Assembly: GCF_029910215.1 (NCBI RefSeq)
Contig: NZ_CP110395.1
Coordinates: 4,340,001-4,404,000 of the forward strand
DNA from: Paraburkholderia sp. D15
GTDB taxonomy: Bacteria > Pseudomonadota > Gammaproteobacteria > Burkholderiales > Burkholderiaceae
Reading direction: 5' to 3'
Length of the DNA stretch: 64,000 bases
Shown here: positions 10,725 through 41,422 of the stretch, piece by piece
Position numbering within the stretch: position 1 is the stretch's first letter
Layout of the letters: every line of letters begins with the position of its first letter
The notes under the pieces: model-generated
The model's database searches: none
Told to the model about the DNA's origin: nothing
The model's input: only the letters and a program-made list of their open reading frames with translations
Program-made: the position numbers and the translations under genes

Positions 10725-10755
10725 CATTACCCGTCGAAAATCTTCCGTGACACGA

Positions 10756-10787
10756 AAGAGCGCCCGCCAGACGGCGAGCGCTCTTCT
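10756..10787 (+). terminator. Intrinsic terminator after the Ogr-like pair
   Basis: An 8-bp perfect outer stem (AAGAGCGC / GCGCTCTT), with further pairing inside, lies 32 bp after the second Ogr-like gene; the 3' flank is T-rich (CTTCTAATC). It separates the phage-like unit from the metal efflux operon. Confidence 0.65.
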
Positions 10788-10875
10788 AATCTTTACGTCT
10801 GCGCTGCTGCCGTAGTCTGCCGCTCACCTCATCTTCGAACATGCAGCGCGCAGCAGCGTAAGACCATCCTCTAAC

Positions 10876-10902
10876 GTATACCCCCGTACCCTATCCAGGG
10901 TA
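10876..10902. promoter_or_regulatory. Candidate DmeR (RcnR/CsoR-family) operator upstream of dmeR
   Basis: GTATACCCCC is followed directly by the inverted repeat TACCCT-ATCC-AGGGTA. C/G-tracts flanked by TA-rich half sites are what RcnR/CsoR-family regulators bind. The site lies 35-61 bp before the dmeR start codon, the expected place for autoregulation. The assignment is inferred from motif style and position. Confidence 0.6.
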
Positions 10903-10936
10903 AGATGGCCGCCTACCGTTTTTGGGAAATCCGGCC

Positions 10937-11209
10937 ATGAGTCATACGATTCGCGATAAACAGAAACTGCTCAATCGAGTTCGCCGCATCAAGGGGCAGG
11001 TCGAGGCAATCGAGCGCGCGCTGGAAGAGGAGCGCGGTTGCATGGATGTGCTCCAGCTCATCACCAGTAGTCGCGGCGCGATGAACGGTCTGCTTGCCGT
11101 GGTTCTTGAAGATCACATCCGAACGCATCTCGTCGACGCTGAGTCAGAGGGCGAGCACGGCAGCGGCACCGAGCAGTTGATCGAGGTAGTTCACAGCTAC
11201 TTCAAGTAA
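10937..11209 (+). CDS. dmeR: DmeR: nickel/cobalt-responsive repressor of the RcnR/FrmR family
   Basis: 90 residues from ATG 10937, all-helical DUF156 protein. Numbered from this Met, His3, Cys35, His60 and His64 are all present, the four-residue fingerprint of the Ni(II)/Co(II) sensor RcnR; formaldehyde sensors and CsoR copper sensors have different patterns. 'RIKGQVEAIERALEE' is the conserved dimer helix. It precedes a CDF efflux gene by 9 bp. Expected to bind the G-tract operator upstream without metal and release it when Ni or Co binds. A TTG at 10922 in frame is not needed; the fingerprint numbering supports the ATG. Confidence 0.88.
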   Translation: MSHTIRDKQKLLNRVRRIKGQVEAIERALEEERGCMDVLQLITSSRGAMNGLLAVVLEDHIRTHLVDAESEGEHGSGTEQLIEVVHSYFK

Positions 11210-11218
11210 GAGGCAACA

Positions 11219-12505: not shown

Positions 12506-12669
12506 GCAATGGCCGTTACATCGTTACAGGTGCTGAGGGAGCCAGGAGGCTGGGAAAAGCTGGAAATAGTGCAGCAGTACGCGCATTTGTCGGTCGATCC
12601 CCTGGCGCGCTGGGTGCAGCCGCACACACAGGTCGTTGATCTGCAAGCCTTGGCCAGCTGACCGGCTCG

Positions 12670-12687
12670 ACTGTATTTTCACTGTAC
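12670..12687. repeat. 18-bp direct repeat near right end of the element (copy 2)
   Basis: Same 18 bases and orientation as 6898-6915. It lies in the 233-bp gene-free stretch between dmeF and the tRNA, where an integrase gene would normally be expected. Confidence 0.7.
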
Positions 12688-12737
12688 TGGAGGGAAACGA
12701 CTGCGCGGAGAACCCGCTGAAAGCCTTACGGCTCTTG

Positions 12738-12780
12738 GTGCGCCCGGCTGGGATCGAACCAGCAACCCCTGCCTTCGGAG
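12738..12780. repeat. Right attachment-site-like repeat, within tRNA-Arg 3' part
   Basis: Identical to 6749-6791 over 43 bases. Together they bracket 6792-12737 (about 5.9 kb) as an inserted element located downstream of the tRNA 3' end. Confidence 0.9.
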
Positions 12781-12811
12781 GGCAGTACTCTATCCATTGA
12801 GCTACGGGCGC
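12739..12811 (-). tRNA. tRNA-Arg, anticodon CCG
   Basis: On the minus strand a full cloverleaf can be drawn: acceptor GCGCCCG / CGGGCGC, discriminator A, D arm starting GCTC, anticodon stem CTGCC / GGCAG with loop CTCCGAA (anticodon CCG, reads CGG), and T arm with GGTTCGATCC. CCA is not encoded. Its 3' part doubles as the attachment site of the element to its left. Confidence 0.93.
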
Positions 12812-13106: not shown

Positions 13107-14018
13107 ATGAGCGAAGCACCACACGGAGCCCCGATCAAAACCCCCGGGCAGCTCATCGCCGCGATCATCGCCGGATTTGCCGTTCCGATCGTCATCATCG
13201 TTCTGCTGGCCGTGTACGTCGACAATTCGACACGCACCGGCGCCGGCACCGACTCTCTCTCCGACGCCGAAGTCTCCGCCCGCATCAAACCATTCGCCCA
13301 GGTCGACATCCGCGACGCCAACGCGCCGCGCGTCTACAAGACCGGCGAAGAGGTCTACAAGGCCGTGTGCTCGGCGTGTCACGCGTCGGGCGCAGCCGGT
13401 GCACCGAAATTCACCAATACCGCCGACTGGGCCCCGCGCATCGCGCAAGGCTTCGACACGCTGTGGCACACCGCGCTGTCCGGCAAGGGCGCGATGCCAC
13501 CGCGCGGCGGCACCAGCCCGGACGACTACAGCGACTTCGAAATAGCCCGCGCCGTGGTCTACATGGCGAACAATTCGGGCGCAAGCTTCCCCGAACCGGC
13601 GCAGCCGGCCGCCGGAGCGGCAGCGGCATCCGGCGCGGCCGCCGCGTCGGGCGCAACGGCAGCAGCAGCGCCAGTTGCCGGCTCGGACGCCGCCGCAACG
13701 CAAGCCGCAGCCGCCATGGCCGCGATGGCCAGCGTGCCGCAAGCTGCGGCACCAGCAGCCGCGCCGGCTGCCGACGCAGCGCAAGCCGGTAAGGCGCTGT
13801 ACACGCAGGTCTGCCAGGCCTGTCACGCGGCGGGCGTGCTGAACGCACCGAAGTTCGGCGACAAGGATGCCTGGGCGCCGCGCCTGAAAGACCCGATGGA
13901 CACGATCTACAACTACGCGCTGCACGGCAAGGGCGCGATGCCGCCGAAGGGCGGGTCGAATGCATCGGATGCGGATGTGAAGGCCGCCGTCGACTACATG
14001 GTCAACGCGGCAAAGTAA
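13107..14018 (+). CDS. Membrane-anchored dihaem cytochrome c (cytochrome c5 type)
   Basis: 303 residues from ATG 13107 (GGAG at 13092-13095). One N-terminal membrane anchor ('IAAIIAGFAVPIVIIVLLAVYV') followed by two c-type haem domains, each with a CxxCH site (CSACH and CQACH) and a distal 'KGAMPPRGG' / 'KGAMPPKGG' loop carrying the Met ligand. The domains are joined by about 70 residues rich in Ala and Pro, a flexible linker. The protein would sit on the periplasmic face and shuttle electrons. The two domains are clearly duplicates of each other. A longer in-frame start (GTG 13038) is possible but lacks a better ribosome binding site. Confidence 0.88.
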   Translation: MSEAPHGAPIKTPGQLIAAIIAGFAVPIVIIVLLAVYVDNSTRTGAGTDSLSDAEVSARIKPFAQVDIRDANAPRVYKTGEEVYKAVCSACHASGAAGAPKFTNTADWAPRIAQGFDTLWHTALSGKGAMPPRGGTSPDDYSDFEIARAVVYMANNSGASFPEPAQPAAGAAAASGAAAASGATAAAAPVAGSDAAATQAAAAMAAMASVPQAAAPAAAPAADAAQAGKALYTQVCQACHAAGVLNAPKFGDKDAWAPRLKDPMDTIYNYALHGKGAMPPKGGSNASDADVKAAVDYMVNAAK

Positions 14019-14079
14019 GGTATTCACGCGCAGCGGCCCGAAGCATCGTGGCCGCTCGCAGAAGGTAGTGCCGCATAAC

Positions 14080-27014: not shown

Positions 27015-28739
27015 ATGTCGCAGCCGAATGCTCCCGTTTCAGATTCCGGCGCTGCCCGTACCACGGGCGCGCGACTTATCGTCGATGCGTTACTCACGCA
27101 TGGCGTCGAACGTGTTTTCTGCGTGCCCGGCGAGAGCTTTCTCGCGGTGCTGGATTCGCTGCACGACGAGACCGAACGGATTCAGACCATCGTGTGCCGT
27201 CACGAGGCCGGTGCCGCGAACATGGCCGAGGCGGTCGGCAAGCTGACCGGCCGTCCCGGCGTCGCGATCGTCACGCGCGGGCCGGGCGCCACGCATGCGT
27301 CGATCGGCGTGCATACCGCGTTTCAGGACTCCACGCCGATGATCCTGCTGATCGGCCAATGCGCGCGCGAGCATCTGGATCGCGAGGCTTTTCAGGAGAT
27401 CGACTACCGGCGCATGTTCGGCCAGATGGCGAAGTGGGTCGCGCAGATCGACGATCCGAAGCGCATTCCCGAGTATCTGAGTCATGCGTTCCACACGGCG
27501 ACGTCGGGCCGCCCCGGGCCCGTGGTGTTGTCGCTGCCGGAAGACGTATTGAGCGACGCGTGCGACGCCGTGGCCGGCGCGCCGGCTTATCAGCGCGTGG
27601 CGGCGTCGCCGTCGACGGTGCAGATCGAGCGCTTGCGGCAGTTGCTGGAAGGCGCGAAACGGCCGATGGTGATCGCGGGCGGCAGCGGCTGGAGCGCCGA
27701 AGCCTGCGCGAATTTCCAGCGCTTTATCGAAGCGTGGCAGTTGCCGGTGGGCCTCGCATTCCGCTTCCAGGACACGCTCGACAACGAGCACCCGAACTAC
27801 GCGGGCGATGTCGGCCTCGGCATCAATCCGGCGCTCGCGCAGCGCATCCGCGATGCCGATCTGTTGCTGGCGATCGGCCCGCGCCTGGGCGAGGCGACCA
27901 CGAACGGCTACACGCTGCTCGACATTCCGAAGACGCGTCAGACGCTCGTTCACGTGCATCAAGGCGCGGAGGAATTGGGACGCGTGTATGCGGCGGATCT
28001 GCCGATCGTCTCCGGCATGCCGGAACTGGCGGCGCTGCTCGCCGCACTGAAGCCTGCGTCCGACACACTGGCGTGGAGCGGGGCGGCGCAGGACGCACAT
28101 CGCGCGTATCTGGAATGGCGCACGCCACGTCCGGTTCCCGGCGACGTGCAGATGGGCGAAGTCATCCAGCAACTCCGCGCGCACCTGCCGGACGACGCGA
28201 TTCTGACGAACGGCGCGGGCAATTACGCGACGTGGCTGCATCGTCATTTTTCGTATCGGCACTATCGCTCGCAACTTGCGCCGACGAGTGGCGCGATGGG
28301 CTACGGCGTGCCGGCGGCGATCGCGGCGAAGTCGCTGTATCCGGATCGGGCGGTGGTCGCGCTCGCCGGCGACGGCTGCTTCATGATGTCCGCGCAGGAA
28401 CTCGCGACCGCGATGCAATACGACCTGCACGTGCTGTTCATCGTCGTGAACAACAGCCACTTCGGCACGATCCGGATGCATCAGGAGCGGCACTATCCGG
28501 GACGCGTGCACGGCACGGGATTGACCAATCCTGACTTCGCGGCGTTCGCGCGCTCGTTCGGCGCGCACGGCGAAACGGTGGAGCGCACGGAGGAGTTTCT
28601 GCCGGCGCTGCAACGCGCGATGGCGGCCAAGCGCGCGGCGGTGATCGAGATTCGCATGCCGCAGGAGGCGAGTACGCCGGGTGCGACGCTGGAGCAGATT
28701 CGCGAGCAGGGGAGGAAGCTGCGGTCCGCTGCCAGCTAG
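27015..28739 (+). CDS. Acetolactate-synthase-like thiamine diphosphate enzyme
   Basis: 574 residues with RBS GGAGG (27000-27004). N-terminal ThDP pyrimidine domain 'LIVDALLTHGVERVFCVPGESFLAVLD' with the catalytic Glu in 'CRHEAGAANMAEA'; central FAD-like domain; C-terminal pyrophosphate domain with 'GDGCFMMSAQELATAMQYDL' then 'VVNNSHFGTIR' (GDG-x24-NN motif). This is the IlvB-like family, but no small regulatory subunit follows and 'FRFQDTLDNEHPNYAGDVGLG' is typical of non-biosynthetic paralogues. The substrate cannot be assigned. It faces the alkylamine operon convergently with 98 bp between. Confidence 0.85.
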   Translation: MSQPNAPVSDSGAARTTGARLIVDALLTHGVERVFCVPGESFLAVLDSLHDETERIQTIVCRHEAGAANMAEAVGKLTGRPGVAIVTRGPGATHASIGVHTAFQDSTPMILLIGQCAREHLDREAFQEIDYRRMFGQMAKWVAQIDDPKRIPEYLSHAFHTATSGRPGPVVLSLPEDVLSDACDAVAGAPAYQRVAASPSTVQIERLRQLLEGAKRPMVIAGGSGWSAEACANFQRFIEAWQLPVGLAFRFQDTLDNEHPNYAGDVGLGINPALAQRIRDADLLLAIGPRLGEATTNGYTLLDIPKTRQTLVHVHQGAEELGRVYAADLPIVSGMPELAALLAALKPASDTLAWSGAAQDAHRAYLEWRTPRPVPGDVQMGEVIQQLRAHLPDDAILTNGAGNYATWLHRHFSYRHYRSQLAPTSGAMGYGVPAAIAAKSLYPDRAVVALAGDGCFMMSAQELATAMQYDLHVLFIVVNNSHFGTIRMHQERHYPGRVHGTGLTNPDFAAFARSFGAHGETVERTEEFLPALQRAMAAKRAAVIEIRMPQEASTPGATLEQIREQGRKLRSAAS

Positions 28740-28837: not shown

Positions 28838-29965
28838 TTACGCCAGTGCGCCCGCGAGCGTCGCCGCCATCATCGGTTCGGCGGCTTTGCGGCTGATCGG
28901 GTGAAACGCGAGCGCCCGGCTCACCGCGAGCAGGGTCATCATTTCGCTGTCTTTGATATAGGCGAGTCCGCCGGCCAGTTCGGCGGCGTGCATCGCACAT
29001 CGCTCGATGGTTCGCTGCACCGCGAAACGGATCATCAACACGCGCGCGAGCAGCGCCTGCTCCGGCGACGAGGTTTGCATCAGATGGATTGCCCCGTCGA
29101 GCGCCGCCTGCGCCGCTTCCAGCTCGCCACCGAGTCGCGCCCGCTCCGTCGCGTCGATATCGCCGTTGAGCAGCACGCGCTCGGCCATTGCGCTCGCCAC
29201 GCCCAGGTAACTGGCCGACGCGATGATCTCGAACCAGCTCAGACCGATCACTTCCGCACCGGCGACGATCTGCGCCGTCTCAAGATCGCCGTCAGCCGCG
29301 AGCAGCACTTGATCGGCACTCACTCTGACGTTGTCGAAACGGATTTCGTGATTGTCCGCGGCCGCGAGTGGCGCAACCGGCCAGAACGCGTGACGGGTGA
29401 TGCCCTCCGCATCGGCGGAAACGATGGCCATGCCGGTGCGCTTGTTACCGTCAGCACCCTGAAGCGCGACGCCCACCGTGATGATGTCCATGCAGTGACT
29501 CATCGTGCAGGGCTTCTTGTTGCCGTTGATCCGGTAGCCATCGGCATCTGGGGTCATGTAGGTCGTGGAGTCGAAGATGTTCGCGCCCCGGCGCCCCTCC
29601 GCAAATGCGGAAGCGACCAGCAGATCGTTCTGCGCGACGTTGCGCAGCATCTGCGCGCACGCCGGCACCGCTTCGGCCAGTTGACCGCACACGCTGATCG
29701 TGAAGTGATGCATCGTCAACATGAGCGCCATGGAAGGCGCGCGCGCACCCAACGCGCGTTGCAGACGGATACCGTCATAGGGCGACACGCCTGCACCGCC
29801 CAGCGATGCCGGCACCCACAATCCAGGCAGCCTGTATTCGCGGATCAGAGCCTTCAGCTCACCAGGGGCTTTGGCTTCCATCGCGCTCAAGCCCTCGCGC
29901 GCAAGTACGCCGTCGAGACCGGCGGCGTGGCGCTCCAATGCGTTACGTGAATCGTTCAGAAACAT
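28838..29965 (-). CDS. Acyl-CoA/ACP dehydrogenase family protein, TamT-like position
   Basis: 375 residues with acyl-CoA dehydrogenase layout: helical N-terminus ('REYRLPGLWVPASLGGAGVSPYDGIRL'), middle beta domain ('ASAFAEGRRGANIFDSTTYMTPDADGYRINGNKKPCTMS') and C-terminal helical bundle. The common YEGT-type end of catabolic enzymes is missing; the C-terminus reads 'SRALAFHPISRKAAEPMMA', so the active-site base may differ. Last gene of the alkylamine operon, 119 bp after the acyl-AMP ligase. By analogy to TamT in tambjamine biosynthesis it would desaturate the ACP-bound fatty acyl chain. Substrate specificity is inference. Confidence 0.75.
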   Translation of the reverse strand: MFLNDSRNALERHAAGLDGVLAREGLSAMEAKAPGELKALIREYRLPGLWVPASLGGAGVSPYDGIRLQRALGARAPSMALMLTMHHFTISVCGQLAEAVPACAQMLRNVAQNDLLVASAFAEGRRGANIFDSTTYMTPDADGYRINGNKKPCTMSHCMDIITVGVALQGADGNKRTGMAIVSADAEGITRHAFWPVAPLAAADNHEIRFDNVRVSADQVLLAADGDLETAQIVAGAEVIGLSWFEIIASASYLGVASAMAERVLLNGDIDATERARLGGELEAAQAALDGAIHLMQTSSPEQALLARVLMIRFAVQRTIERCAMHAAELAGGLAYIKDSEMMTLLAVSRALAFHPISRKAAEPMMAATLAGALA

Positions 29966-30084
29966 ATAACCATCCGTTGTTGTTCAGAAGTTGAATCGAC
30001 CCAGGCGGCGTGGCCGCGCGGGGCAAGAGGAAATGTGAAAGCGCCGGTTAAATTCGCGTCGGCGTCGGTGTTGGCGTCGACGCG

Positions 30085-31917
30085 CTACGCTGCGCTCGCC
30101 GTCGTGCGCGATGTATCGGCACTCGGCGACGCGTCCGCGAAGCGCGGATGAATCCATTGCGCGACCGCCGGCAGGCCGTCCGTGAGAAAGCGCTCGCGGC
30201 ACGGCCGCCGCGCCAGCTTGCCGCTGGTGGTCTTGGGAATCGCGCCGTTGCCGATCAGCACGAGCGCGTAGGGCAGTACGCCATGCTCCGCATAGATTGC
30301 GTCGCGCATGGCAACGAAAATTTCGTCCGCGCGCGCTTCATCCCGTGGTCCGATTTCCTGCACGAACACGAGATGCTCCTCGTTGCAGACGGTCACGGAA
30401 AACGCCGTACCGCAGCCCGCGCGAATGGCATCGTGACAACGGTCGACAGTGCGCTCGATATCCTGTGGGTAGTGGTTAACGCCGCGCAGAATGATCAGAT
30501 CCTTTAGCCGCCCGCTAACGAACAGCTCGCCTTCGTGCATGAAGCCAAGGTCGCCGGTACGCAGATAGGCGTGCTGCCGCCCGGCGATGCGGCCACCGAA
30601 TGCCGCTGCGGTTTCCGCGTCGCGTCGCCAGTAACCGGCAGCGACGGACGGCCCGGCAACCCATATTTCGCCAACGCGGCCGTCAGGCAGCGCGCTTGAC
30701 GTCTTCGGATCGACGACGCATACATCAAGATCGGCGACAGTCACGCCGCAACTGACGATCTGACGTTGCGGCGCTTCGGCGGCGACATCTTCACCGACCG
30801 TTTCGCATGATCCGCGCCCGTAGCTCGTGGTATCGATCGTCAGGACCAGGGGCGACGTCTCATGCCGCTTCCCGGCAACGAATAGCGTCGTTTCGGCCAT
30901 GCCATAGCAGGGATAGAACGCCTGCCGGCGAAATCCCGCCGCGCCGAAACGTGCCGCAAAACGTTCCAGCGTATCGGCCCGGATCGGCTCGGCTCCTGAG
31001 TAGGCGAGCGCCCAGCACGACAGGTCGAGCGTCTGGAGGCGACCATCGGCGATCTTGTCGATGCACAGCTCGTACGCAAAATTCGGCGCGCCGCTCAACG
31101 TGCAGCGACGCGCTGAAATCTCCGTCAGCCACCGTTCCGGTCGACGCAGAAAGGCCGCGGCAGCCATGAAACTCAGCGGCACGCCCGCACAGAACGAGCC
31201 CAGAATCGTGCCGATCAACCCCATGTCGTGATAAGGCGGCAGCCACGTGAAATGGCGATCGCCTGGCTTGCATTGCATATGCAGCGCCATCGCATACACG
31301 TTATGCAACAGGTTGCCGTGGGTCAGCATCACGCCTTTGGGCGTCCCCGTGGAACCGGACGTGTATTGCAGAATGGCAAGCCGCTCGCGTTGCGGCGTGG
31401 GAGGCGTCCACGCGGTTTCGGGCGTGTCGAGCGGCGTATCGGTCGCGAGCCACCGCAGACGCCTGAGCGGAGCCAGCAGATGGTGCTGATCGCCAAGCTG
31501 CTCCAGGGTGGCACGGGTAGTCAGCGCCGTGCCCGCATCGCAATCCTCCACGACGGCGGCGAGGCGGCTGCGTAACCGCGGATTCAACGGCGGATAGCTC
31601 GGCACCGCGATCATCCCGGCGTACAGGCAACCGAACAGCGCGCAGAGATAGTCGAGGCCGGCAGGATAGAGCAGCAAAACCCGATCGCCGGCGTCGCCCT
31701 GCGCCTGGAGCCGCGCGGCGATCTGCCGTGCACGACGGTCCAGTCGCTCGTACGTTATCGAGAAGTCTTGCGGACGCGGGCCCGAGTAATCGATGAACGT
31801 GAACGGCCGACGCTGCGGCATGAGAACCGCATGATGCTGGGCGACCGCAACGAGGCTTTCGCATTGATATGGCCACTCCGGCACGAGCAATTGATACGGC
31901 AGAGATGATGCGTTCAT
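30085..31917 (-). CDS. Fatty acyl-AMP ligase (FAAL)
   Basis: 610 residues of the adenylate-forming superfamily. P-loop 'YTSGSTGTPKGVMLTHGNL', 'RTGDLGFMHEGELFVSGRLKDLIILRGVNHYPQDIE' hinge and C-terminal 'IPKTTSGKLARRPCRERF' with the catalytic Lys. 'VPSYPPLNPRLRSRLAAV' and the overall length are typical of FAAL and not of acyl-CoA ligases. It would activate a free fatty acid as acyl-AMP and transfer it to the ACP. No ACP domain is attached here, unlike TamA; the ACP is on the neighbouring fusion protein. Its ATG overlaps the fusion's stop (ATGA at 31914-31917), so the two are translationally coupled. Confidence 0.88.
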   Translation of the reverse strand: MNASSLPYQLLVPEWPYQCESLVAVAQHHAVLMPQRRPFTFIDYSGPRPQDFSITYERLDRRARQIAARLQAQGDAGDRVLLLYPAGLDYLCALFGCLYAGMIAVPSYPPLNPRLRSRLAAVVEDCDAGTALTTRATLEQLGDQHHLLAPLRRLRWLATDTPLDTPETAWTPPTPQRERLAILQYTSGSTGTPKGVMLTHGNLLHNVYAMALHMQCKPGDRHFTWLPPYHDMGLIGTILGSFCAGVPLSFMAAAAFLRRPERWLTEISARRCTLSGAPNFAYELCIDKIADGRLQTLDLSCWALAYSGAEPIRADTLERFAARFGAAGFRRQAFYPCYGMAETTLFVAGKRHETSPLVLTIDTTSYGRGSCETVGEDVAAEAPQRQIVSCGVTVADLDVCVVDPKTSSALPDGRVGEIWVAGPSVAAGYWRRDAETAAAFGGRIAGRQHAYLRTGDLGFMHEGELFVSGRLKDLIILRGVNHYPQDIERTVDRCHDAIRAGCGTAFSVTVCNEEHLVFVQEIGPRDEARADEIFVAMRDAIYAEHGVLPYALVLIGNGAIPKTTSGKLARRPCRERFLTDGLPAVAQWIHPRFADASPSADTSRTTASAA

Positions 31918-34865
31918 GCCGATTCCCTAGCTTGATCGAGATCGCCAATGCACGGGTCTGCCGGCAATGAGCACGACGTGTCCGACTCGATAAACCGCTG
32001 CCACCGCGCCTGCGCGAGAGGACTGCCGAAACTTTGCAGCGCGGCGATAGCGAACCCATGCTTGCGCGCCATGACTTGCTGACGCTCTATTTCGGCGATG
32101 TCGAGGTCGTGACCGATGCTCGTGTTTTCGAATCGCCCTTCGAGGGCGAGCAGCATGGTTTCGGCCATGCATGCGTAGGACGTGCCCGCGGCAACGCCAT
32201 AGGGTCCGATTCTGGGCGCACCGGGCAACGCAATGATGCCGCCATCGATCACCAGCACGTCCGGCCGCACATCCACGATCGACGCATGAACCGAGCGGGG
32301 GCGGGAAATGTCGCAGACCATTGCCCCTTGCCGGAACAGACCGGCTTTCATGTGCTGCCCCGGAAAACTGGTCGCCGTGACGACCACGTCGGCCGTACCG
32401 ATTTCGCGGAGATCGCTGGTCAATACCAGTGCGCCGCAATCCTCGAGCTGTTCGATCGCCTGTTCGATCGACGCTCCGTGCGACACGCTCCGCCGGACCT
32501 GCGCGGCGACGGATGCCGCGTGCACCACATCGTCGTCCACCAGCAACGCGTTGCGCACGATCTCGCCGGCGACCCGGAGCAGCCGTGCACGGCCAGTCCG
32601 CGGCTCATGCGCCGGGTTGCCGATCAAGGTGAGCCGCGAAGCGCGGCGCGCGAGCAGAAGCGCCATGCACGATCCGATCGCGCCCGCTGCGCCGACCACG
32701 CTGACTTCGCGCCCATGCCATTCGCGTCCCGCACGCCGCATCGCGGCATCCAGCGCTTCGACGCCGGTCGCCACGGTGTACGAATTGCCCGAAGTCAGTG
32801 CCACGCCACGATCGAGCAACTGCGCGCCGCCTCCGCTCACAACGGACGTATAAGCACCCAGTCCGACGATGCGCGCGCCGCGCTGGCGAGCCAGTTCGAT
32901 GCCTTTGTTCAGCACCGCGATCGCATCGCCCTGAGCGAGCGCGCGCAACTGTTCCGCCGTGTGGCTCAGCATGATGAATTCGCCGCACGCGATGGCACCG
33001 GTCGGCGATTCGATCGTCACCGTGGACCCGATCACGGGGTCGAGCAAACCATCCATGCTCCGTGCGAATTCGGCAAGTTCGTCGGGACGCAGGACACGCA
33101 GGCTAGGGTCGTAATCGGCGTAACTGTCGGGGTCGAGTGGATGAAGCAGGAAACCGAACGAATGGGCATCGGTGGGAGACGCAGTTGCGTAGACGGTCGT
33201 CGCGACGGGTGGCGTGACGCTGCGTTGCGCACCGGACTCCGGCGCAGACGGTTCGCCCCGCACGATCGCGCGATAGAAGTTACCGGTGTGCCGCTCGGCC
33301 AGCGCGTCGAGTGCACGCCCGAGCGCATCCGCCATGATGTCGCACTGCTCGCGCGTGGCATTGAGCGGAGGCTGCAAGCGCAGCACTTCGCCACGATTCA
33401 GCGTCGGCGCCACCCGCACACCTTCTACGTTCAGCAGATAACTGGCGACGAGCTGCGCCAGTTCTTTTTCCTCGGCGGCAATGCCGAGAAAACTTTCCGG
33501 CCACGCCGCGCGCGATGAGCTGAACCGCACGCCCAACATGAAGCCGCGTCCGCGGACTTCGCTGATCAACGACGGATGTTTCTCGCGCAGGGCTTCGAGG
33601 CGACCCCTGAGGTAAGCGCCTTGCAGCCTGACATGACGCAGCAACTCGCCATCGTTACGCGTGAGGAGGTTCAACGTGGCAAGCCCGACACGTGCTCCAA
33701 TCGCGTTGCCGGCGAACGTCGACGAGTGTTTCAGCGCGAATTTCTGCCGATACACCGCCTCGCTGCACAACGTCGCGCCGATCGGCACGAGACCGCCGCC
33801 GAGCGCCTTCGACACGGTGAGAATGTCCGGTTGGACGTCCTCGTCTTCGCAGGCAAACAGAGCGCCGGTTCGACCTAACCCGGTCTGTATCTCGTCGACG
33901 ATCAACAGCACGCCGTGACGCCGGCAGAGGGTCTGCACGTCGGCCAGATAGCCGGCAGCGGGGACGTGAACGCCGCCCTCGCCCTGTATCGGCTCGACGA
34001 TAAACGCCGCATAGCGCCCGACGCTCGACGCAAGCTGCTTCTCGAGCGCCGCGGCATTTCCGTACTCGACGTAATCGAAACCGGCGAGCGGCAAACCGAA
34101 GGGCGTCTGATAGTCAGGCTTTCCCGTGGCTGACAACGCACCGAAGGTTTTGCCGTGGAACCCCTCCAGCGTCGACAGGATGCGGGTACGCCCGGTGGCG
34201 TGGCGCGCCATTTTCAGCGCCGCCTCGATTGCCTCGGCACCGCTGTTCGAGAACGTCACATACCGAAGGCTCGCCGGCGCCAGCTCCACCAATCGTTGCG
34301 CGAGCCACCCCGCCGACGCGAGTAACGAAGGCTGTGCAAAATTCGGCTCCGCGTCGTCGCGCAACGAATCGACGGCAGCCCAGATCTCGTCCGGGTGATG
34401 GCCGAAGGGGAGCGCCCCGTATTGCGCGAGAAAGTCGAGATACCGGCGCCCATCCTCGTCGTACAGATACGGACCATTCGCTCGCACGAACGTCCTGTCG
34501 AGTTTCAGTTGCGCGAGTTTGCGCGCCTGATAGGGGTTGACGTAAATTTCGAACCGGCTGGCAAGATTGTTTTTCGCATTCCCGGACATTTGCCATTCGA
34601 CGAGTGCGCGCGATAGCGCTGTCGTATCCGAAATGGATTCGACGAAATTCACTGGTATCGAAATACCTAACCAGCGCTCGAATTCACAAATCAGTTCCGC
34701 GCCGGATATTGAATCGATACCTAAATCGGCGAGACTGACCGGCGTGCAGCCGTCCCATGAACTATTGAAATGTACTTTGGCGTAGGCAGCGAGCCACGCG
34801 AGGATTTCCTGCTCGGTTTTGAAGGTCAAGGTGGTTCCCGTCCGATCTGCACCAGTCTCTTGCAA
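31914..34865 (-). CDS. Three-domain fusion: acyl carrier protein / class III aminotransferase / acyl-ACP reductase
   Basis: 983 residues. (1) 15-92: acyl carrier protein with 'DLGIDSISGAEL', phosphopantetheine Ser52. (2) 105-535: class III PLP aminotransferase; 'FSNSGAEAIEAALKMAR', 'EGFHGKTFGALSATG', 'DEIQTGLGRTG', PLP Lys353 in 'TVSKALGGG'. (3) 565-960: like cyanobacterial aldehyde-forming acyl-ACP reductase: 'SYADYDP', 'SGNSYTVA', Rossmann 'VVGAAGAIGS' (723-732) and 'YACMAETMLLALEG', with Cys899 at the place of the acylated Cys of that enzyme. Logic: ACP-bound acyl chain to aldehyde to amine. TamH of Pseudoalteromonas joins aminotransferase and reductase; here an ACP is fused too. Start is TTG 34865, with a weak RBS; a TTG 36 bp downstream is the alternative. 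Confidence 0.85.
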   Translation of the reverse strand: MQETGADRTGTTLTFKTEQEILAWLAAYAKVHFNSSWDGCTPVSLADLGIDSISGAELICEFERWLGISIPVNFVESISDTTALSRALVEWQMSGNAKNNLASRFEIYVNPYQARKLAQLKLDRTFVRANGPYLYDEDGRRYLDFLAQYGALPFGHHPDEIWAAVDSLRDDAEPNFAQPSLLASAGWLAQRLVELAPASLRYVTFSNSGAEAIEAALKMARHATGRTRILSTLEGFHGKTFGALSATGKPDYQTPFGLPLAGFDYVEYGNAAALEKQLASSVGRYAAFIVEPIQGEGGVHVPAAGYLADVQTLCRRHGVLLIVDEIQTGLGRTGALFACEDEDVQPDILTVSKALGGGLVPIGATLCSEAVYRQKFALKHSSTFAGNAIGARVGLATLNLLTRNDGELLRHVRLQGAYLRGRLEALREKHPSLISEVRGRGFMLGVRFSSSRAAWPESFLGIAAEEKELAQLVASYLLNVEGVRVAPTLNRGEVLRLQPPLNATREQCDIMADALGRALDALAERHTGNFYRAIVRGEPSAPESGAQRSVTPPVATTVYATASPTDAHSFGFLLHPLDPDSYADYDPSLRVLRPDELAEFARSMDGLLDPVIGSTVTIESPTGAIACGEFIMLSHTAEQLRALAQGDAIAVLNKGIELARQRGARIVGLGAYTSVVSGGGAQLLDRGVALTSGNSYTVATGVEALDAAMRRAGREWHGREVSVVGAAGAIGSCMALLLARRASRLTLIGNPAHEPRTGRARLLRVAGEIVRNALLVDDDVVHAASVAAQVRRSVSHGASIEQAIEQLEDCGALVLTSDLREIGTADVVVTATSFPGQHMKAGLFRQGAMVCDISRPRSVHASIVDVRPDVLVIDGGIIALPGAPRIGPYGVAAGTSYACMAETMLLALEGRFENTSIGHDLDIAEIERQQVMARKHGFAIAALQSFGSPLAQARWQRFIESDTSCSLPADPCIGDLDQARESA

Positions 34866-35235: not shown

Positions 35236-35856
35236 CTACGCGTAGATAACCGACAGCGCCGCCAGCTCTTTCATTAAAGCTGGCTTGCGGGCTTCGATCA
35301 CGTCCCACAAGATTTGATAGATCACGGACTTGATTACTTCCGTCTGGCTCAGCGTTGTCTCCTGCATCAACGTCTTCAGGTTTTCGGCGATGCGTGGCGT
35401 CACCTTCATTGAAAGCCGGCGCCGCGCCGCACCACGACGTTCCTTGAAACGCTCCAACGCAGCGCTGTGCGCCTTGAGCAACATGGCTTGCGAGTATTCA
35501 CCGCAGGCGAAGCGATGCAGATAGAGCATCATCAACACTTTACGAAATTCCGTCGAACTTTCGCTATCGACACTGTATGCGGCGAGATCGAGAACATCGA
35601 GGTAAATGGCCGGCAACTGCGCTTCGATTGGCCGTACTTCTTTTTGCCGTGCCTCGCGAACCGCCGGAGTGGACTGCGCCGGGACGGCGACCACCTGGTC
35701 GCATACGTCGCACACCGCAGTGAGAATATTCTTCACTTCGCCTTTGCCGTCCGAAAACGGCACGTCTCGCCTCACAAAGGTCGTACCGACGAGCTGCGCG
35801 CAATGGCCACAAATTGCCTTGCTCTTTTCACCTTCTTCGTAGAGTTTCGTCTTCAT
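35236..35856 (-). CDS. MqsA/YgiT-like zinc-finger antitoxin candidate
   Basis: 206 residues. The N-terminus has 'CGHC' (about 17-20) and 'CDVCDQVVAVPAQSTPAV' (about 48-65), the zinc-binding half of MqsA/YgiT antitoxins including the 'PAQS' feature. The rest is unlike the MqsA HTH: a helical middle and a Lys/Arg-rich segment 'RRRLSMKVTPRIAENLKTLMQETTLSQTEVIKSVIY' that looks like a ribbon-helix-helix domain. So DNA binding may come from a different fold. It follows a small gene after 7 bp, the toxin-then-antitoxin order. Confidence 0.6.
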   Translation of the reverse strand: MKTKLYEEGEKSKAICGHCAQLVGTTFVRRDVPFSDGKGEVKNILTAVCDVCDQVVAVPAQSTPAVREARQKEVRPIEAQLPAIYLDVLDLAAYSVDSESSTEFRKVLMMLYLHRFACGEYSQAMLLKAHSAALERFKERRGAARRRLSMKVTPRIAENLKTLMQETTLSQTEVIKSVIYQILWDVIEARKPALMKELAALSVIYA

Positions 35857-35863
35857 GGTCTGG

Positions 35864-36205
35864 TCACGGGTGCACGCTGATAAACACGGTTTCAGGGTTG
35901 CCGACGAAATAGAACTTTACGTACCACCCGCCGGATTCAATGATATGAACGTCGACAGAAGGAACCCTGTGATGCGGTGACGACTTGTATTGCGCGCCGT
36001 TGCTTCGTGTAATGAGCTTCTCGACGAACTGGGCGCTGACTTGCCCGGTGGATAGAAGCGGGAAATTGTCGATGAAATTTTTTTCGATAGAAGCCTGAAT
36101 GCGGACCGCCCGCCCATAAAAAAACCCCGCCGAAGCGGGGTTCCCAGACGTCTCAAGCAAACCGCGAAAGCTTACTTGCCGCCCACGCTTTGCAGCGTCG
36201 TCCAC
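35864..36205 (-). CDS. Small toxin candidate paired with the MqsA-like gene; start uncertain
   Basis: At most 113 residues. The C-terminal part 'RVPSVDVHIIESGGWYVKFYFVGNPETVFISVHP' is a compact beta-rich segment as in small RNase toxins, but I cannot place it in a named family. The longest frame starts at GTG 36205, overlapping the LivK-like gene and crossing its terminator. TTG 36160 also lies upstream of the terminator, and no ATG, GTG or TTG occurs downstream of it. A non-standard start (ATT 36100) or readthrough is therefore possible. The neighbour 7 bp downstream fits an antitoxin. Confidence 0.45.
   Translation of the reverse strand: MDDAAKRGRQVSFRGLLETSGNPASAGFFYGRAVRIQASIEKNFIDNFPLLSTGQVSAQFVEKLITRSNGAQYKSSPHHRVPSVDVHIIESGGWYVKFYFVGNPETVFISVHP
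36117..36142 (-). terminator. Intrinsic terminator of the LivK-like gene
   Basis: AACCCCGC-CGAA-GCGGGGTT hairpin (36123-36142) followed on the minus strand by a T-run (A-run 36117-36124 on the plus strand), 30 bp after the binding-protein stop codon. Confidence 0.9.
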
Positions 36206-37320
36206 TTGCCGTCGACAACCTTGTACAGCGTGATGCCACCGTTCTTCAGGTCGCCCTTGGCGTCGTACGCCAGGTTAGCCGACGTCACGGCCGGCATCGA
36301 GGTCTTCGCCAACAGCGGCAAGTACTTCGCCGGATCGGTCGAGTTCGCCTTCTTCATTGCGTCGAACATGGCCATCGCGCCATCGTAAGCGTACGGCGAG
36401 TACGTTTGCACGTCTTCGTTGAAACGCTTCTTGTACTTCGCGACGTAGTCCTTGCCGCCCGGCATTTCTTCCAGCGGCAGGCCCGCCAGCGACGCCACCG
36501 TGCCGTTCGCCGCATCGCCCGCGATCTGGATGAACGTCGGCGTGTGGACCATTTCGCCGCCCATCAGCGGCGCCTTGATGCCCAGCGCCTTCATCTGCTT
36601 GACCATCGGTGCCGCTTGCGAATCCGCGCCGCCGTAATAGATCAGGTCCGGGTTGACCGACTTCACCTTGGTCAGGATCGACTTGAAGTCGACGGCCTTG
36701 TCGTTCGTGTATTCACGATCGATCACGTTGCCGCCTGCTGCCTTCGCCGCCTTCTCGAACTGATCCGCCAGACCCTGGCCGTAAGCCGTGCGGTCGTCGA
36801 CGATCACGATCTTCTTCATGCCCAGCGTCTTGACCGCGAACGTGCCGGCGACCGAACCTTGCTGCGTGTCGGACGTCATCATGCGGAACGTGGTCTTGAA
36901 GCCTTGCTGCGTGTACTCAGGCGCCGTTGCCATCGCGATTTCGGGGATGCCCGCGTTCGCGTAGATGCGCGACGCCGGAATCGTGGTGCCCGAGTTGAAA
37001 TGGCCCAGCATGCCCTTGATGCCGTCATCCACCAGCTTCTGCGCGACGGTCGTACCGGTGCGCGGGTCAGCCTGGTCGTCGGCCGAATCCAGCACGAAGC
37101 GAACCTGCTTGCCGCCGATCACCGGCTTGGTCGCGTTCATGTCTTCGACAGCCAGCACGATGCCGTTCTGGAAGTCCTTGCCGTAGTGCGCCTGCGCACC
37201 CGTCATCGGACCCGCGAAACCTACCTTCACGTCTTCCGTCGATTGAGCGTTGGCCGTCCCCGCCAGCGACATCGCCGCAACCAGTGCTGCGCCTGCCAGC
37301 TGTTTCATCTTGTGTTGCAT
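36172..37320 (-). CDS. Branched-chain amino acid ABC transporter substrate-binding protein (LivK-like)
   Basis: 382 residues from ATG 37320 (AAGGAG RBS at 37326-37331). Signal peptide 'MKQLAGAALVAAMSLAGTANA' near the N-terminus, then the periplasmic type I binding protein pattern 'VKVGFAGPMTGAQAHYGKDFQNGIVLAVEDMN', 'FNSGTTIPASRIYANAGIPEIA', 'TFAVKTLGMKKIVIVDDRTAYGQGLAD' and 'YSPYAYDGAMAMFDAMKKA'. Delivers Leu/Ile/Val or related amino acids to a Liv permease. The permease and ATPase genes are not next to it; a livF end lies 26 kb away at the window edge. Confidence 0.9.
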   Translation of the reverse strand: MQHKMKQLAGAALVAAMSLAGTANAQSTEDVKVGFAGPMTGAQAHYGKDFQNGIVLAVEDMNATKPVIGGKQVRFVLDSADDQADPRTGTTVAQKLVDDGIKGMLGHFNSGTTIPASRIYANAGIPEIAMATAPEYTQQGFKTTFRMMTSDTQQGSVAGTFAVKTLGMKKIVIVDDRTAYGQGLADQFEKAAKAAGGNVIDREYTNDKAVDFKSILTKVKSVNPDLIYYGGADSQAAPMVKQMKALGIKAPLMGGEMVHTPTFIQIAGDAANGTVASLAGLPLEEMPGGKDYVAKYKKRFNEDVQTYSPYAYDGAMAMFDAMKKANSTDPAKYLPLLAKTSMPAVTSANLAYDAKGDLKNGGITLYKVVDGKWTTLQSVGGK

Positions 37321-37408
37321 AGCTTCTCCTTGGTACCAGGTGTGGATGGAGCGGTTCCGGGGTCGCCGTGCCGCTTCCGTTCTATTGCGCAATTGAACTG
37401 AGGTTCGC

Positions 37409-40400
37409 TCAACCAATCGTCATCAAATTCGCATTACCGCCTGCCGCCGCGGTATTCACGCTGACCGAGCGTTCCGTCAACAGACGCTCCAGCGCGTAAT
37501 CCTCGTCGCCGCTTTCCAGCGCGCGTGCCGCCACGCCTTGCACCGACACGATCGGACCGCTGCGCTTCGCGACTTCCTTCACCAGCGCGAGCAGCTCGTC
37601 GCTGTCGCCTTCGAACAGCACGGCATCGAACGGCGTATCGGCGCTCTTCTTCACGCTCGCATACGGCTTCAGCGAAGCGGGCAACTGGGACGCCAATTGT
37701 TCACCTGCCGCGCCTTCGAACAATGCGCGATTTCCCGTAGCCAGCGCCGCGGCAAACTGCACGCGCGCACCGCTTGCCGTCGACGCGACGCACAGCACCG
37801 TGCCGCGCGCGCCCAGCGTGTAGGTGTTGCGCTCGCCGGTCGGCCCCGACAGCACCGCGGTCGCGCCCGCCGGCACATGCGACAGATAGCCGTCGCAGCG
37901 CGCCGCCAGTTGCGGCTGACGCTCGGCGATCAGCCAGTCGCGCAGCGCGGTCAGCGCGGCGGACGGATTATCCGCGTTGCCATTGCCTTGCGGTACGTCG
38001 GCGATCAACGATTGCGCCAGCGACTTCGGCAAACCCGCCGGCCGCGTCGCCAGCAGACGTTGCAGATACAACGCGCCGCCCGCCTTCGGACCCGTGCCCG
38101 ACAAACCTTCGCCGCCGAACGGCTGCACGCCCACCACCGCGCCGATCACGTTGCGGTTCACATAAATATTGCCGACGTGCGCGCGGCTGATCACGTGCGC
38201 GATCGTTTCGTCGATCCGCGTGTGAATGCCGAGCGTGAGGCCGTAGCCGGTCGCGCGGATCTGTTCGAGCAGCTTGTCCAGCTGGCTGCGGCGATAACGC
38301 ACCACGTGCAGCACCGGACCGAACACTTCACGCTTCAGTTCGTCGATGCTGTCGAGCTCGATCAGCGTCGGCGGTACGAAGGTGCCTTGCGCGCAACCTT
38401 CCGGCATCGGCAGCTGTTCGATCTTGCGGCCCTTCTCGCGCATTGCCGCGACGTGGGCGTCGATGCCGCGCTTCGCGTCGAGATCGATCACCGGGCCGAC
38501 GTCGGTCGACAGACGGTCCGGATTGCCCACGGCCAGCTCGCGCATCGCGCCGGTCAGCATTTCGAGCGTGCGGTCCGCAACGTCGTCCTGCAGACAAAGA
38601 ACGCGCAACGCGGAACACCGTTGACCGGCCGAATCGAACGACGATTGCAGCACGTCCGCGACCACCTGTTCGGCGAGCGCCGACGAGTCGACGATCATCG
38701 CGTTCTGGCCGCCAGTTTCGGCGATCAGCGGAATCGGCTTGCCGTCCGGGTCGAGACGATTCGACAGCGTCTTGTTGATCAGGCGCGCCACTTCGGTCGA
38801 GCCGGTGAACATCACCGCGCGGGTGCGCGCGTCGGCCACCAGCGCGGCGCCGACCGTTTCGCCGTTACCCGGCAGCAGTTGCACCGCGCCCGCCGGAACA
38901 CCGGCTTCGCGCAGAATCCGCACGGCTTGCGCGGCGATCAGCGGCGTCTGTTCGGCCGGCTTCGCGAGCACGGTATTGCCGGCCGCGAGGGCGGCAGCCA
39001 CCTGACCCATGAAAATCGCCAGCGGGAAATTCCACGGGCTGATACACACCACCGGACCGAGCGGGCGATGCGTGTCGTTCGAAAACTCGCTGCGAATCTG
39101 CGTCGAGTAGTAGCGCAGGAAGTCGATCGCCTCGCGGATTTCCGCGACCGCGTTCGCCAGCGACTTGCCGGCTTCGCGCACCACCAGACCCATCAGCGTG
39201 TGCATCTGCGCTTCGAGCAGATCGGCGGCACGGGCGAGGCAATCGGCGCGCGCGTCGACCGGCGTGGCTTGCCAGATCGGTGCGGCGGCCACCGCATGCG
39301 CCAGCGCGGCGCTCACGTGTTCCGGCGTCGCTTCGACCACGGTACCCACGAGATCGCGTTGATCGGCCGGGTTGCGCACGTCGCGCGCAACGCCCACGGC
39401 GATTTCGTTGTCTTCGAGCATCGGGGCGGCGCGCCACGGATGGTTCGCGCTCGCCAGCAGTGCCGACGACAACGACGCCAGCCGATGCTCGTTCGACAGA
39501 TCGAGGCCCATCGAATTGAGACGCTCGGCGCCGTACAGATTGCGCGGCAGCGGGATTTTCGCGTGCGGCGCGCCGAGCGGGACGACCTTCGACGCTTCGT
39601 CGACCGGATCGGCGATCAGCTCCTTGATCGCGACGCTTTCGTCGGCAATCCGGTTCACGAACGAGGTGTTCGCGCCATTCTCCAGCAGACGGCGCACGAG
39701 GTACGCAAGCAGAGTTTCGTGCGTGCCGACCGGCGCGTACACGCGGCACGGACGGTTCAGCTTGTCGCGGCCGGTGACTTCCTCGTACAGCGGTTCGCCC
39801 ATGCCGTGCAGGCACTGGAACTCGTACTGACCGGGGTAGTAGTTATTGCCCGCGAGGTGATAGATCGCCGACAGCGTGTGCGCATTGTGCGTGGCGAATT
39901 GCGGATAGACCGCGTCCGGCGCGGCGAGCAGCTTCTTCGCGCAAGCGACGTACGACACGTCCGTGTAGATCTTGCGCGTGTAGACCGGATAGCCTTCCAG
40001 GCCGTCCACCTGCGCGCGCTTGATTTCGGTATCCCAGTACGCGCCCTTCACCAGACGCACCATCACGCGGTGACGGCTGCGACGCGCGAGGTCGATCACG
40101 TAATCGATCACGAACGGGCAACGCTTCTGATACGCCTGCACCACGAAGCCGATGCCGTTCCAGCCGGCCAGGTCCGGATCGAAGCACAGCGCTTCGAGCA
40201 GATCCAGCGAGAGTTCGAGACGGTCGGCTTCCTCGGCGTCGATGTTCAGGCCGATATCGTAGCGGCGCGCGAGAATCGCCAGCGCGCGCACGCGCGGCAG
40301 CAGCTCGCTCATCGTGCGTTCCTGCTGCGAGCGCGAGTAACGGGCGTGCAGCGCGGAGAGCTTGATCGAGATGCCCGGGCCTTCGTAGATGCCGCGGCCG

Positions 40401-41338
40401 CCGGCGGCCTTGCCGATCGCGTGGATCGCCTGTTCGTACGACGCGTAGTAGCGCTGTGCGTCGGCTTCCGTGGTGGCCGCTTCGCCGAGCATGTCGTACG
40501 AGTAGCGGAAACCGCGCGCTTCGTATTTGCGGCTGTTGGCCAGCGCTTCGGAAATGTTCTCGCCGGTGACGAACTGCTCGCCCATCAAGCGCATCGCCAT
40601 ATCGACGCCCTTGCGGATCAGCGGTTCGCCGCCCTTGCCGATCAGACGCGTAAGCGCCGACGACAGGCTCGTTTCGCTGTTGGTCGTCACCAGCTTGCCG
40701 GTGATCATCAAGCCCCACGTCGCGGCGTTGACGAACAGCGACGGCGCCTGGCCGACGTGCGACTTCCAGTCGCCCTTGCTGATCTTGTCGCGAATCAGCG
40801 CATCGCGGGTTGCGCGGTCGGGAATCCGCAGCAGCGCTTCGGCGAGGCACATCAGCGCGACGCCTTCCTGGCTCGACAGAGAGAACTCGTGGATCAGCCC
40901 TTCGACGCCGCCGCCCTTGCTCTTGGTGCGCAGCGTCTCGACCAGCTTGCCGGCCATGGCCTGCACGTCGCCCGCGAGATTGGCCGGCAGACGCGCCTGA
41001 CCCAGCAGGAACGGCACGCACTCCGGCTCCGGACGACGATACGCCGCCGTAATCGCCGCGCGCAGCACCGACTGCGGTTGCACGTTCTGCGCGAAGTCGA
41101 GAAACGGATGCGACGCGCTGTCCTCGTCCTGTTCCACCGTGGCGCCATCGGCGAGATCGGCGGAGCCCGTTGCGCCGGACAGCTCGGCCGGCAACTGGCC
41201 GTGCTCGATCTTTTCGAGGTAAGCGAAGATTGCCTGCTTGATGAGCCAGTGCGGAGTGCGTTCGAGGCGGGTAGCGGCATCTTTCAGCCGGGAACGCAGG
41301 AGGTCGTCGACCTTGACGCCGAGGGTGGTGCTAGCCAT
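37409..41338 (-). CDS. putA: Trifunctional PutA: transcriptional repressor / proline dehydrogenase / P5C dehydrogenase
   Basis: 1309 residues from ATG 41338, full length for type B PutA. N-terminal ribbon-helix-helix domain (1-50, 'MASTTLGVKVDDLLRSRLKDAATRLERT'). FAD proline dehydrogenase domain from about 190 to 560 ('GPGISIKLSALHARYSRSQQ', 'LNIDAEEADRLELSLDLLE'). P5C dehydrogenase from about 650 with 'PWNFPLAIFMGQVAAALAAGNTVLAKPAEQTPLIA', Glu in 'AETGGQNAMIVDSS', and catalytic Cys in 'GQRCSALRVLCLQ'. C-terminal tail domain from about 1110. Oxidises proline to glutamate and should repress its own gene through the operator at 41414-41448. Confidence 0.97.
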   Translation of the reverse strand: MASTTLGVKVDDLLRSRLKDAATRLERTPHWLIKQAIFAYLEKIEHGQLPAELSGATGSADLADGATVEQDEDSASHPFLDFAQNVQPQSVLRAAITAAYRRPEPECVPFLLGQARLPANLAGDVQAMAGKLVETLRTKSKGGGVEGLIHEFSLSSQEGVALMCLAEALLRIPDRATRDALIRDKISKGDWKSHVGQAPSLFVNAATWGLMITGKLVTTNSETSLSSALTRLIGKGGEPLIRKGVDMAMRLMGEQFVTGENISEALANSRKYEARGFRYSYDMLGEAATTEADAQRYYASYEQAIHAIGKAAGGRGIYEGPGISIKLSALHARYSRSQQERTMSELLPRVRALAILARRYDIGLNIDAEEADRLELSLDLLEALCFDPDLAGWNGIGFVVQAYQKRCPFVIDYVIDLARRSRHRVMVRLVKGAYWDTEIKRAQVDGLEGYPVYTRKIYTDVSYVACAKKLLAAPDAVYPQFATHNAHTLSAIYHLAGNNYYPGQYEFQCLHGMGEPLYEEVTGRDKLNRPCRVYAPVGTHETLLAYLVRRLLENGANTSFVNRIADESVAIKELIADPVDEASKVVPLGAPHAKIPLPRNLYGAERLNSMGLDLSNEHRLASLSSALLASANHPWRAAPMLEDNEIAVGVARDVRNPADQRDLVGTVVEATPEHVSAALAHAVAAAPIWQATPVDARADCLARAADLLEAQMHTLMGLVVREAGKSLANAVAEIREAIDFLRYYSTQIRSEFSNDTHRPLGPVVCISPWNFPLAIFMGQVAAALAAGNTVLAKPAEQTPLIAAQAVRILREAGVPAGAVQLLPGNGETVGAALVADARTRAVMFTGSTEVARLINKTLSNRLDPDGKPIPLIAETGGQNAMIVDSSALAEQVVADVLQSSFDSAGQRCSALRVLCLQDDVADRTLEMLTGAMRELAVGNPDRLSTDVGPVIDLDAKRGIDAHVAAMREKGRKIEQLPMPEGCAQGTFVPPTLIELDSIDELKREVFGPVLHVVRYRRSQLDKLLEQIRATGYGLTLGIHTRIDETIAHVISRAHVGNIYVNRNVIGAVVGVQPFGGEGLSGTGPKAGGALYLQRLLATRPAGLPKSLAQSLIADVPQGNGNADNPSAALTALRDWLIAERQPQLAARCDGYLSHVPAGATAVLSGPTGERNTYTLGARGTVLCVASTASGARVQFAAALATGNRALFEGAAGEQLASQLPASLKPYASVKKSADTPFDAVLFEGDSDELLALVKEVAKRSGPIVSVQGVAARALESGDEDYALERLLTERSVSVNTAAAGGNANLMTIG

Positions 41339-41393
41339 GTTTCCTTCTTCGGATACCAGACGAATTCGCTGGCGAAAGACTAAAAGTTGGCGA

Positions 41394-41422
41394 ATCGTAC
41401 GCCTCCCAATAAAAAGGTGCAA
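41394..41422 (-). promoter_or_regulatory. Predicted putA promoter
   Basis: On the minus strand: -35 TTGCAC (41417-41422), 17-bp spacer, -10 TACGAT (41394-41399). Predicted start about 50 bp before the putA ATG. The -35 lies inside the palindrome at 41414-41448. Confidence 0.6.

Follow-up and report, generated by a model that had tools for sequence, protein, structure and literature searches.

A three-gene operon of Paraburkholderia sp. D15 as a candidate natural truncation of an azoxy-type lipid cluster

Introduction

In the tambjamine YP1 module of Pseudoalteromonas tunicata, TamA (an ANL-type adenylating enzyme carrying an acyl carrier protein, ACP) and TamH (a transaminase joined to a thioester reductase, TA-TR) are found together with TamT. 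PtTamA and PtTamH convert a C12 acid into the C12 amine in vitro, and PtTamH carries the transaminase ahead of the reductase in one chain (PMC9594044). Aliphatic azoxy pathways have been described for valanimycin (VlmH/R/A/O/B), azodyrecin (Ady3/10/7/6/8), KA57-A and elaiomycin, and azodyrecin is also proposed to begin with a fatty amine (PMC9379638, PMC11705231). Here, we describe a three-gene operon of Paraburkholderia sp. D15 that resembles parts of these systems. It lies at positions 28838-34865 of a 64,000-nucleotide stretch of contig NZ_CP110395.1 (positions 4,340,001 to 4,404,000), hereafter called the window. The host genome is 8.33 Mb in 3 contigs with a completeness of 100, and its genus includes Paraburkholderia sartisoli, P. 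saeva and P. phymatum.

Like the tambjamine module, the window operon encodes an adenylating enzyme, an ACP, a class-III transaminase and a Cys-dependent acyl-ACP reductase, with the transaminase before the reductase in one chain, and the same acid-to-amine activities are predicted. In contrast to TamA, where the ACP is on the ligase, the window ACP is on the transaminase-reductase. Furthermore, no pyrrole gene was seen among the window neighbours scanned, and the third gene resembles VlmH (TamT being known here by description rather than by sequence). With the azoxy pathways the operon shares a probable VlmH-type N-hydroxylase, to which congeners add homologues of VlmA and VlmO. It differs from them in having no VlmA, VlmO, VlmB or VlmR, and the congeners differ in having a P450, a glutathione S-transferase (GST) and a DAO-family oxidase. 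The azodyrecin amine is proposed to arise via the dehydrogenase Ady2 and the transaminase Ady4, whereas the window has a fatty acyl-AMP ligase (FAAL) and a fusion of ACP, aminotransferase (AT) and thioester reductase (TR).

Two further systems are comparable. PigE of prodigiosin biosynthesis, the best solved match (4ppm), also joins a class-III transaminase to a thioester-reductase-like domain, but its domain order is reversed, with the reductase part first; its role in the synthesis of 2-methyl-3-n-amyl-pyrrole is taken from PDB and NCBIfam names. The gene set of Pseudomonas putida W15Oct28 likewise combines a VlmH-like N-hydroxylase with an aminotransferase, with no VlmA among the genes listed there (PMC4219678). 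It differs in its mupV-like epimerase, cyclase, FabG, desaturase and RND efflux genes, and neither a FAAL nor an ACP-AT-TR fusion is listed in that paper (PMC4219678).

We consider it somewhat better than an even call that the window operon is a three-gene lipid pathway to a fatty N-alkylhydroxylamine and a naturally truncated azoxy/N-N-bond cluster. From the genes, residues, family likeness, synteny, rates and failed searches observed here, we infer the chemical steps, the chain length and the final product.

Results

The operon and its third gene

The operon consists of three intact frames of 983, 610 and 375 aa on the minus strand:

31914..34865, minus strand: ACP-AT-TR fusion gene, whole; 983 aa from a TTG, or 971 aa from a TTG 12 codons further on; AlphaFold mean predicted local distance difference test (pLDDT) 88.1
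30085..31917, minus strand: FAAL, 610 aa; Pfam AMP-binding domain PF00501 (241.6 bits) and DIP2-like AMP domain PF23024; FAAL models
28838..29965, minus strand: probable VlmH-family flavin-dependent amine N-hydroxylase with the acyl-CoA dehydrogenase (ACAD) fold, 375 aa; assigned from homologue names, neighbours, alignment, profile and model

The fusion and FAAL genes overlap by 4 bp (31914-31917). An earlier note on this DNA had described three genes on one strand with such an overlap, and this arrangement was borne out.

The Pfam acyl-CoA-dehydrogenase scores of the 28838-29965 product were right at the cut-offs. Two of its homologues, among the matches listed, carry the name isobutylamine N-hydroxylase. 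The protein was 36, 35 and 40% identical to ACAD-like proteins of the loci L146, L147 and L069, each encoded beside homologues of VlmA, VlmO and VlmB. The likeness extended over the full length and included the common motifs MHxF, AEG, KKPC, WFE and FHP. This VlmH-type comparison set was chosen by its gene context and does not contain authentic VlmH. On a Streptomyces plasmid, relatives of the third gene adjoin VlmA, VlmO, flavin reductase and VlmB-like genes; for Streptomyces plasmid genes 45-49% identical to the relative P0197, a VlmA homologue was at most 4.6 kb away in all 11 records.

A VlmH-type profile, built from 8 rows that included the window, G040 and L069 proteins, gave 450-548 bits for the five congener proteins outside it, compared with at most 42 bits for any other ACAD gene of the loci retrieved. 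When a profile from 80 relatives was run against the PDB, DszC-type flavin monooxygenases came out on top (77 bits), with the best dehydrogenase at 54 bits. Foldseek on the predicted model (pLDDT 92.7) ranked the nitrososynthase DnmZ first, with dehydrogenases close behind.

The earlier note had read the third gene as a TamT-like desaturase acting on the acyl chain, which would make the product a free long-chain alkenyl amine. The gene set does resemble TamA/TamT/TamH, in which TamT has been proposed at the same place (PMC5939613), and several results count against an N-hydroxylase. The protein has an acyl-CoA-dehydrogenase fold, its top NCBIfam match was PigA, a dehydrogenase (44.3 bits), and the single-sequence PDB list was topped by TcsD (6u1v), an acyl-ACP dehydrogenase, at 38.9 bits. 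Moreover, monooxygenase and dehydrogenase structures scored within about one Z unit of each other, and a dehydrogenase is still compatible with the fold and with generic family models taken by themselves. An argument from the catalytic glutamate, made by eye, was not decisive. What speaks against the desaturase is the VlmA and VlmO homologues beside the gene in all six other congeners that encode it, together with the 11 plasmid records and the gap in profile scores described above. We regard the desaturase as improbable, and the gene probably encodes a VlmH-type amine N-hydroxylase. An enzyme of this type implies a hydroxylated fatty amine as the predicted product, in place of the alkenyl amine of the earlier note, and makes the azoxy pathway the relevant comparison. 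A beta-oxidation enzyme was also considered and rejected: nine other places in the own genome (E<=1) reached at most 61 bits, and the actinobacterial relatives P0197 and P0206 reached 245 and 242 bits.

The cluster in congeners and other relatives

Of 144 genomes searched across the genus, 7 had a match to the third gene at E<=1e-20, that of the window included. In the other six it is part of a ten-gene cluster running in one direction and consisting of the ACP-AT-TR fusion, FAAL, P450, ICMT-family methyltransferase, GST, homologues of VlmO and VlmA, DAO-family oxidase, N-hydroxylase and a small membrane protein (families from Pfam of the G040 copies). Five of the six clusters lay between the same flanking genes as the window operon, and that of P. 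phymatum STM815 was on NC_010625.1. Since the congeners have the same three genes plus seven more, two of which resemble N-N-joining genes, the window looks like a shortened azoxy-lipid pathway. The position concerned is:

29966..30084, minus strand: 119-bp gap between the FAAL and N-hydroxylase genes, where all six congeners carry P450-ICMT-GST-VlmO-VlmA-DAO

The VlmO homologue showed weak DUF4260 similarity, as has been reported for Ady6 (PMC9379638). Residues D51, H82, H110 and D114 are reported to be essential in VlmO (PMC11705231). These positions were kept in 7 of 7 rows of VlmO homologues (six congeners and the acidobacterial metagenome-assembled genome, MAG, of locus L069), as judged from the published positions with VlmO itself outside the alignment, whose first row begins one residue early and reads 52, 83, 111 and 115. 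VlmB gave no match in any of the 7 genomes (the own genome and six congeners) in a search without a positive control genome. As no VlmB was found and a P450, a GST and a DAO oxidase are present instead (L033-L037, L136), the hydrazine may be processed otherwise than that of valanimycin.

Outside the genus, the acidobacterial MAG has a row of FAAL, AT-TR, N-hydroxylase, VlmO, VlmB homologue, kinase-like, ICMT and flavin-reductase-like genes, and a VlmA homologue and a PrpD-like gene about 5 kb upstream of this row. Its VlmB homologue was 50% identical to the VlmB-like protein of pSA3239. In a Ramlibacter MAG (L046, 9230-22688), the fusion and FAAL genes precede genes for an RND-type permease and an acyltransferase-like protein of 528 aa, and no N-hydroxylase match was found in this region; the locus may represent other tailoring of the same amine module. 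The names of the acidobacterial kinase, PrpD, flavin reductase and fused ACP, and those of the Ramlibacter genes, are sequence readings only.

Genes missing from the genome

The best own-genome match to the VlmO homologue had E=0.1, in a search that had no control genome. For VlmA-type transferases, the sole LPG_synthase_C match in the own genome was an 888-aa frame, whose length suggests MprF; 7 of 14 control genomes matched in this search. Own-genome paralogues of the P450, DAO oxidase and ICMT were 27-35% identical, compared with 51-98% among the congener orthologues. Relocation of the lost genes elsewhere in the genome was rejected, since the searches yielded no VlmO, only the MprF-length frame for VlmA and distant paralogues for the rest; the GST and terminal membrane genes were not searched.

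The hydroxylamine might nevertheless be an intermediate, with unlinked P450, oxidase, methyltransferase or acyltransferase paralogues completing a conjugate. Distant P450, DAO-oxidase and ICMT paralogues do occur in the genome, and the Ramlibacter locus pairs the fusion and FAAL with genes read as a permease and an acyltransferase. However, the identity of the own P450, oxidase and methyltransferase paralogues (the GST lying outside this comparison) falls far from that among the congener orthologues, and we find completion by unlinked genes very improbable.

Truncation, retention or decay

In the N-hydroxylase tree, the window fell inside a supported 17-row clade (99/95) together with all six full-cluster genomes; within it, the window, the P. 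phymatum group and the remaining rows branched from one open three-way fork. The fusion tree, a quick tree with several weak forks, again placed the window in an open fork. On this placement, the simplest history is that the middle genes were lost, but as the window's fork was open in both trees, that history is parsimonious rather than proven. The flanking-gene proteins were 88-97% identical to those of G275/G207, whereas the shared cluster proteins were only 63-70% identical. This contrast indicates that the window and G275/G207 have not shared a copy of the cluster recently.

Loss of genes could also have left a relic, i.e., three genes left useless and decaying after an azoxy-type cluster was recently stripped of P450-ICMT-GST-VlmO-VlmA-DAO and its terminal membrane gene. 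Membership of the same supported clade fits such a relic, as does the shared chromosomal site in five of the six congeners, and the window's genome is alone among the 7 that carry the N-hydroxylase gene in lacking the middle genes. In addition, a very recent loss would give the same intact and non-accelerated picture. These points weigh against a functional three-gene pathway. On the other side, all three frames are intact, and Tajima relative-rate tests on the three proteins gave a chi-square of at most 2.0 in 20 of 20 tests (relatives G040, G136, G157 and G275; outgroup G712 and, for two proteins, also Ramlibacter). The lack of acceleration favours retained function, and a fast-evolving relic was rejected on these tests. 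Moreover, two stretches are gone at the site, yet the remaining three genes form an uninterrupted chemical sequence.

Comparison of the 119-bp gap with five of the six congeners revealed nothing that was clearly left over from the lost genes. Local alignment scores were under the shuffled maximum in four of the five, and L034 scored 28 against a shuffled maximum of 25; a recent deletion with a detectable scar was rejected. On balance, we think a decaying relic unlikely.

The fusion protein and the FAAL

The fusion protein comprises three domains:

34566..34865, minus strand: ACP domain, residues 1-100, with phosphopantetheine Ser52 (codon 34710-34712); PF00550 (24.9 bits), NCBIfam ACP models
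33276..34568, minus strand: class-III aminotransferase domain, about residues 100-530, with pyridoxal phosphate Lys353 (codon 33807-33809); PF00202 (302.7 bits), PDB PigE 4ppm
31971..33233, minus strand: acyl-ACP reductase (thioester reductase) domain, about residues 545-965, with GAAGAIG at 725 and Cys899 (codon 32169-32171); NCBIfam, 6jzq

Pfam detected the PP-binding and Aminotran_3 domains, with PF00550 above its cut-off, and the closest PDB relative of the aminotransferase part was PigE 4ppm. The C-terminal 444 residues matched NCBIfam PigE (149 bits) and TIGR04058 AcACP_reductase (56 bits), both under the equivalog cut-offs. The reductase domain has a GxxGxxG motif at 725, and alignment with 6jzq, a solved acyl-ACP reductase, placed C899 opposite its Cys; the active Cys of acyl-ACP reductase is reported as C294 (PMC9594044). 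S52 (in GIDS), K353 and C899 were invariant in 39 of 39 rows, i.e., the window protein and 38 homologues, which were chosen from 120 listed, in most cases because they had an ACP; the Ser count is therefore partly due to selection. The earlier note had named these three residues and had placed the third domain in the acyl-ACP reductase family, and both statements agree with these alignments and profiles. The reductase region was matched by 401 proteins at E<=0.001, which excludes chance.

A fold search with the whole fusion model returned aminotransferases and scaffold fusions of one, with no acyl-ACP reductase among the 50 rows shown. It is therefore no test of the ACP and reductase folds, and the reductase assignment rests on sequence. 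The protein database entry P0001 begins the fusion 12 codons later, at another TTG (971 aa), which has a better-spaced purine-rich stretch ahead of it as judged by eye; hence, the residue numbers given here may be 12 lower. Overall, the domains and residues support a predicted TamH-type TA-TR enzyme with its own ACP.

Variants of this architecture were also seen. P0064, P0074 and P0096 (1526-1561 aa), among the matches listed, combine FAAL, ACP and AT domains and the matched reductase region in a single chain, and are possible one-chain fatty-acid-to-amine enzymes. AT-TR fusions without a detected ACP (L047-L107) occurred in many MAGs of Bacillota and in Rhodococcus, Nocardia and Pseudomonas, mostly with no FAAL match in the fetched stretch.

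For the 30085-31917 product, FAAL-named models scored 319-433 bits and CoA-ligase models at most 174 bits, except PRK07768 at 310 bits (best 25 of 103 matches; all under the models' own cut-offs). These scores identify it as a predicted fatty acyl-AMP ligase rather than a CoA ligase.

Surroundings of the operon and further loci

The genes that mark the edges of the site lie outside the pathway:

27015..28739, plus strand: flanking thiamine-pyrophosphate (acetolactate-synthase-like) enzyme, convergent; one site edge in five of the six congeners
36172..37416, minus strand: flanking branched-chain amino-acid binding protein; marks the other site edge
37409..41422, minus strand: 1337-aa gene, read as proline/aldehyde dehydrogenase PutA without a profile scan; also at the other site edge

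Upstream of the operon, at 35236-36205, two short frames (206 and 113 aa) lie in a stretch of lower G+C (0.557), and neither frame had a Pfam or NCBIfam match. The G+C content was also reduced (0.50-0.61) at window positions 1-12811, up to about a tRNA-Arg gene (12736-12811), as is seen at genomic-island boundaries. No pyrrole or condensing genes were found among the 7 neighbourhood proteins scanned; the rest of the window and the genome were not searched for them.

Three other loci combine related genes. A Bermanella MAG (L116, 705-5625) encodes an AT-TR fusion and, next to it, a protein of 302 aa and a VlmA-like protein (116 bits with a VlmA profile). In L038, from another genus of the same family, a VlmB-like frame (13121-14059; 94 bits) follows shortly past an AT-TR fusion. 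Plasmid pC052_E of Nostoc sp. C052 (L148, 2558-10143) carries a VlmH-like gene with aminotransferase, desaturase, GNAT and nitric-oxide-synthase oxygenase genes, a possible N-nitroso or diazeniumdiolate lipid cluster.

Discussion

In the proposed pathway, the FAAL would adenylate a fatty acid and load it onto the N-terminal holo-ACP domain of the fusion. The C-terminal reductase domain would then turn the acyl-ACP into a fatty aldehyde, from which the middle class-III aminotransferase domain would make the primary fatty amine. Finally, N-hydroxylation of this amine by the VlmH-family enzyme would give a fatty N-alkylhydroxylamine, with a reductase encoded elsewhere supplying the reduced flavin. 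The first of these activities, from activation and ACP loading to reduction and transamination, had been put forward in the earlier note and are supported by the domains, the residues and the TamA/TamH logic. The predicted steps to the amine rest on the known chemistry of TamA and TamH and on conserved residues, and the last step on family and context.

In the relatives, the VlmA homologue would next transfer an amino acid from its aminoacyl-tRNA to the hydroxylamine, giving an ester that the VlmO homologue would rearrange to a hydrazine. Because VlmA and VlmO were not found in the own genome, the window pathway should end at the hydroxylamine, or at an oxime or nitrone formed by further oxidation. 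Our tentative suggestion, held with clearly less than even confidence, is that this is a selectively kept three-enzyme pathway ending in a free fatty N-alkylhydroxylamine (or oxime/nitrone), which exists alongside the N-N-bond lipid clusters without VlmB in Paraburkholderia.

We found no publication describing azoxy or N-hydroxy fatty-amine clusters from Paraburkholderia in the literature searched, which left most subscription papers outside. A published survey was restricted to actinobacteria (PMC9379638), and a VlmH-like gene had been described within a P. putida cluster in 2014 (PMC4219678). The present results place VlmH, VlmA and VlmO homologues in Paraburkholderia, and link the TamH-type acid-to-amine and the VlmH/VlmA/VlmO azoxy machineries, which were known apart. 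They also imply that genes annotated as acyl-CoA dehydrogenases beside fatty-amine genes may hide N-hydroxylases. The window and its congeners offer a natural comparison of one chromosomal site with and without the N-N-forming genes. If the proposed pathway is correct, it would yield a lipid class from an azoxy route that stopped after the first nitrogen oxidation.

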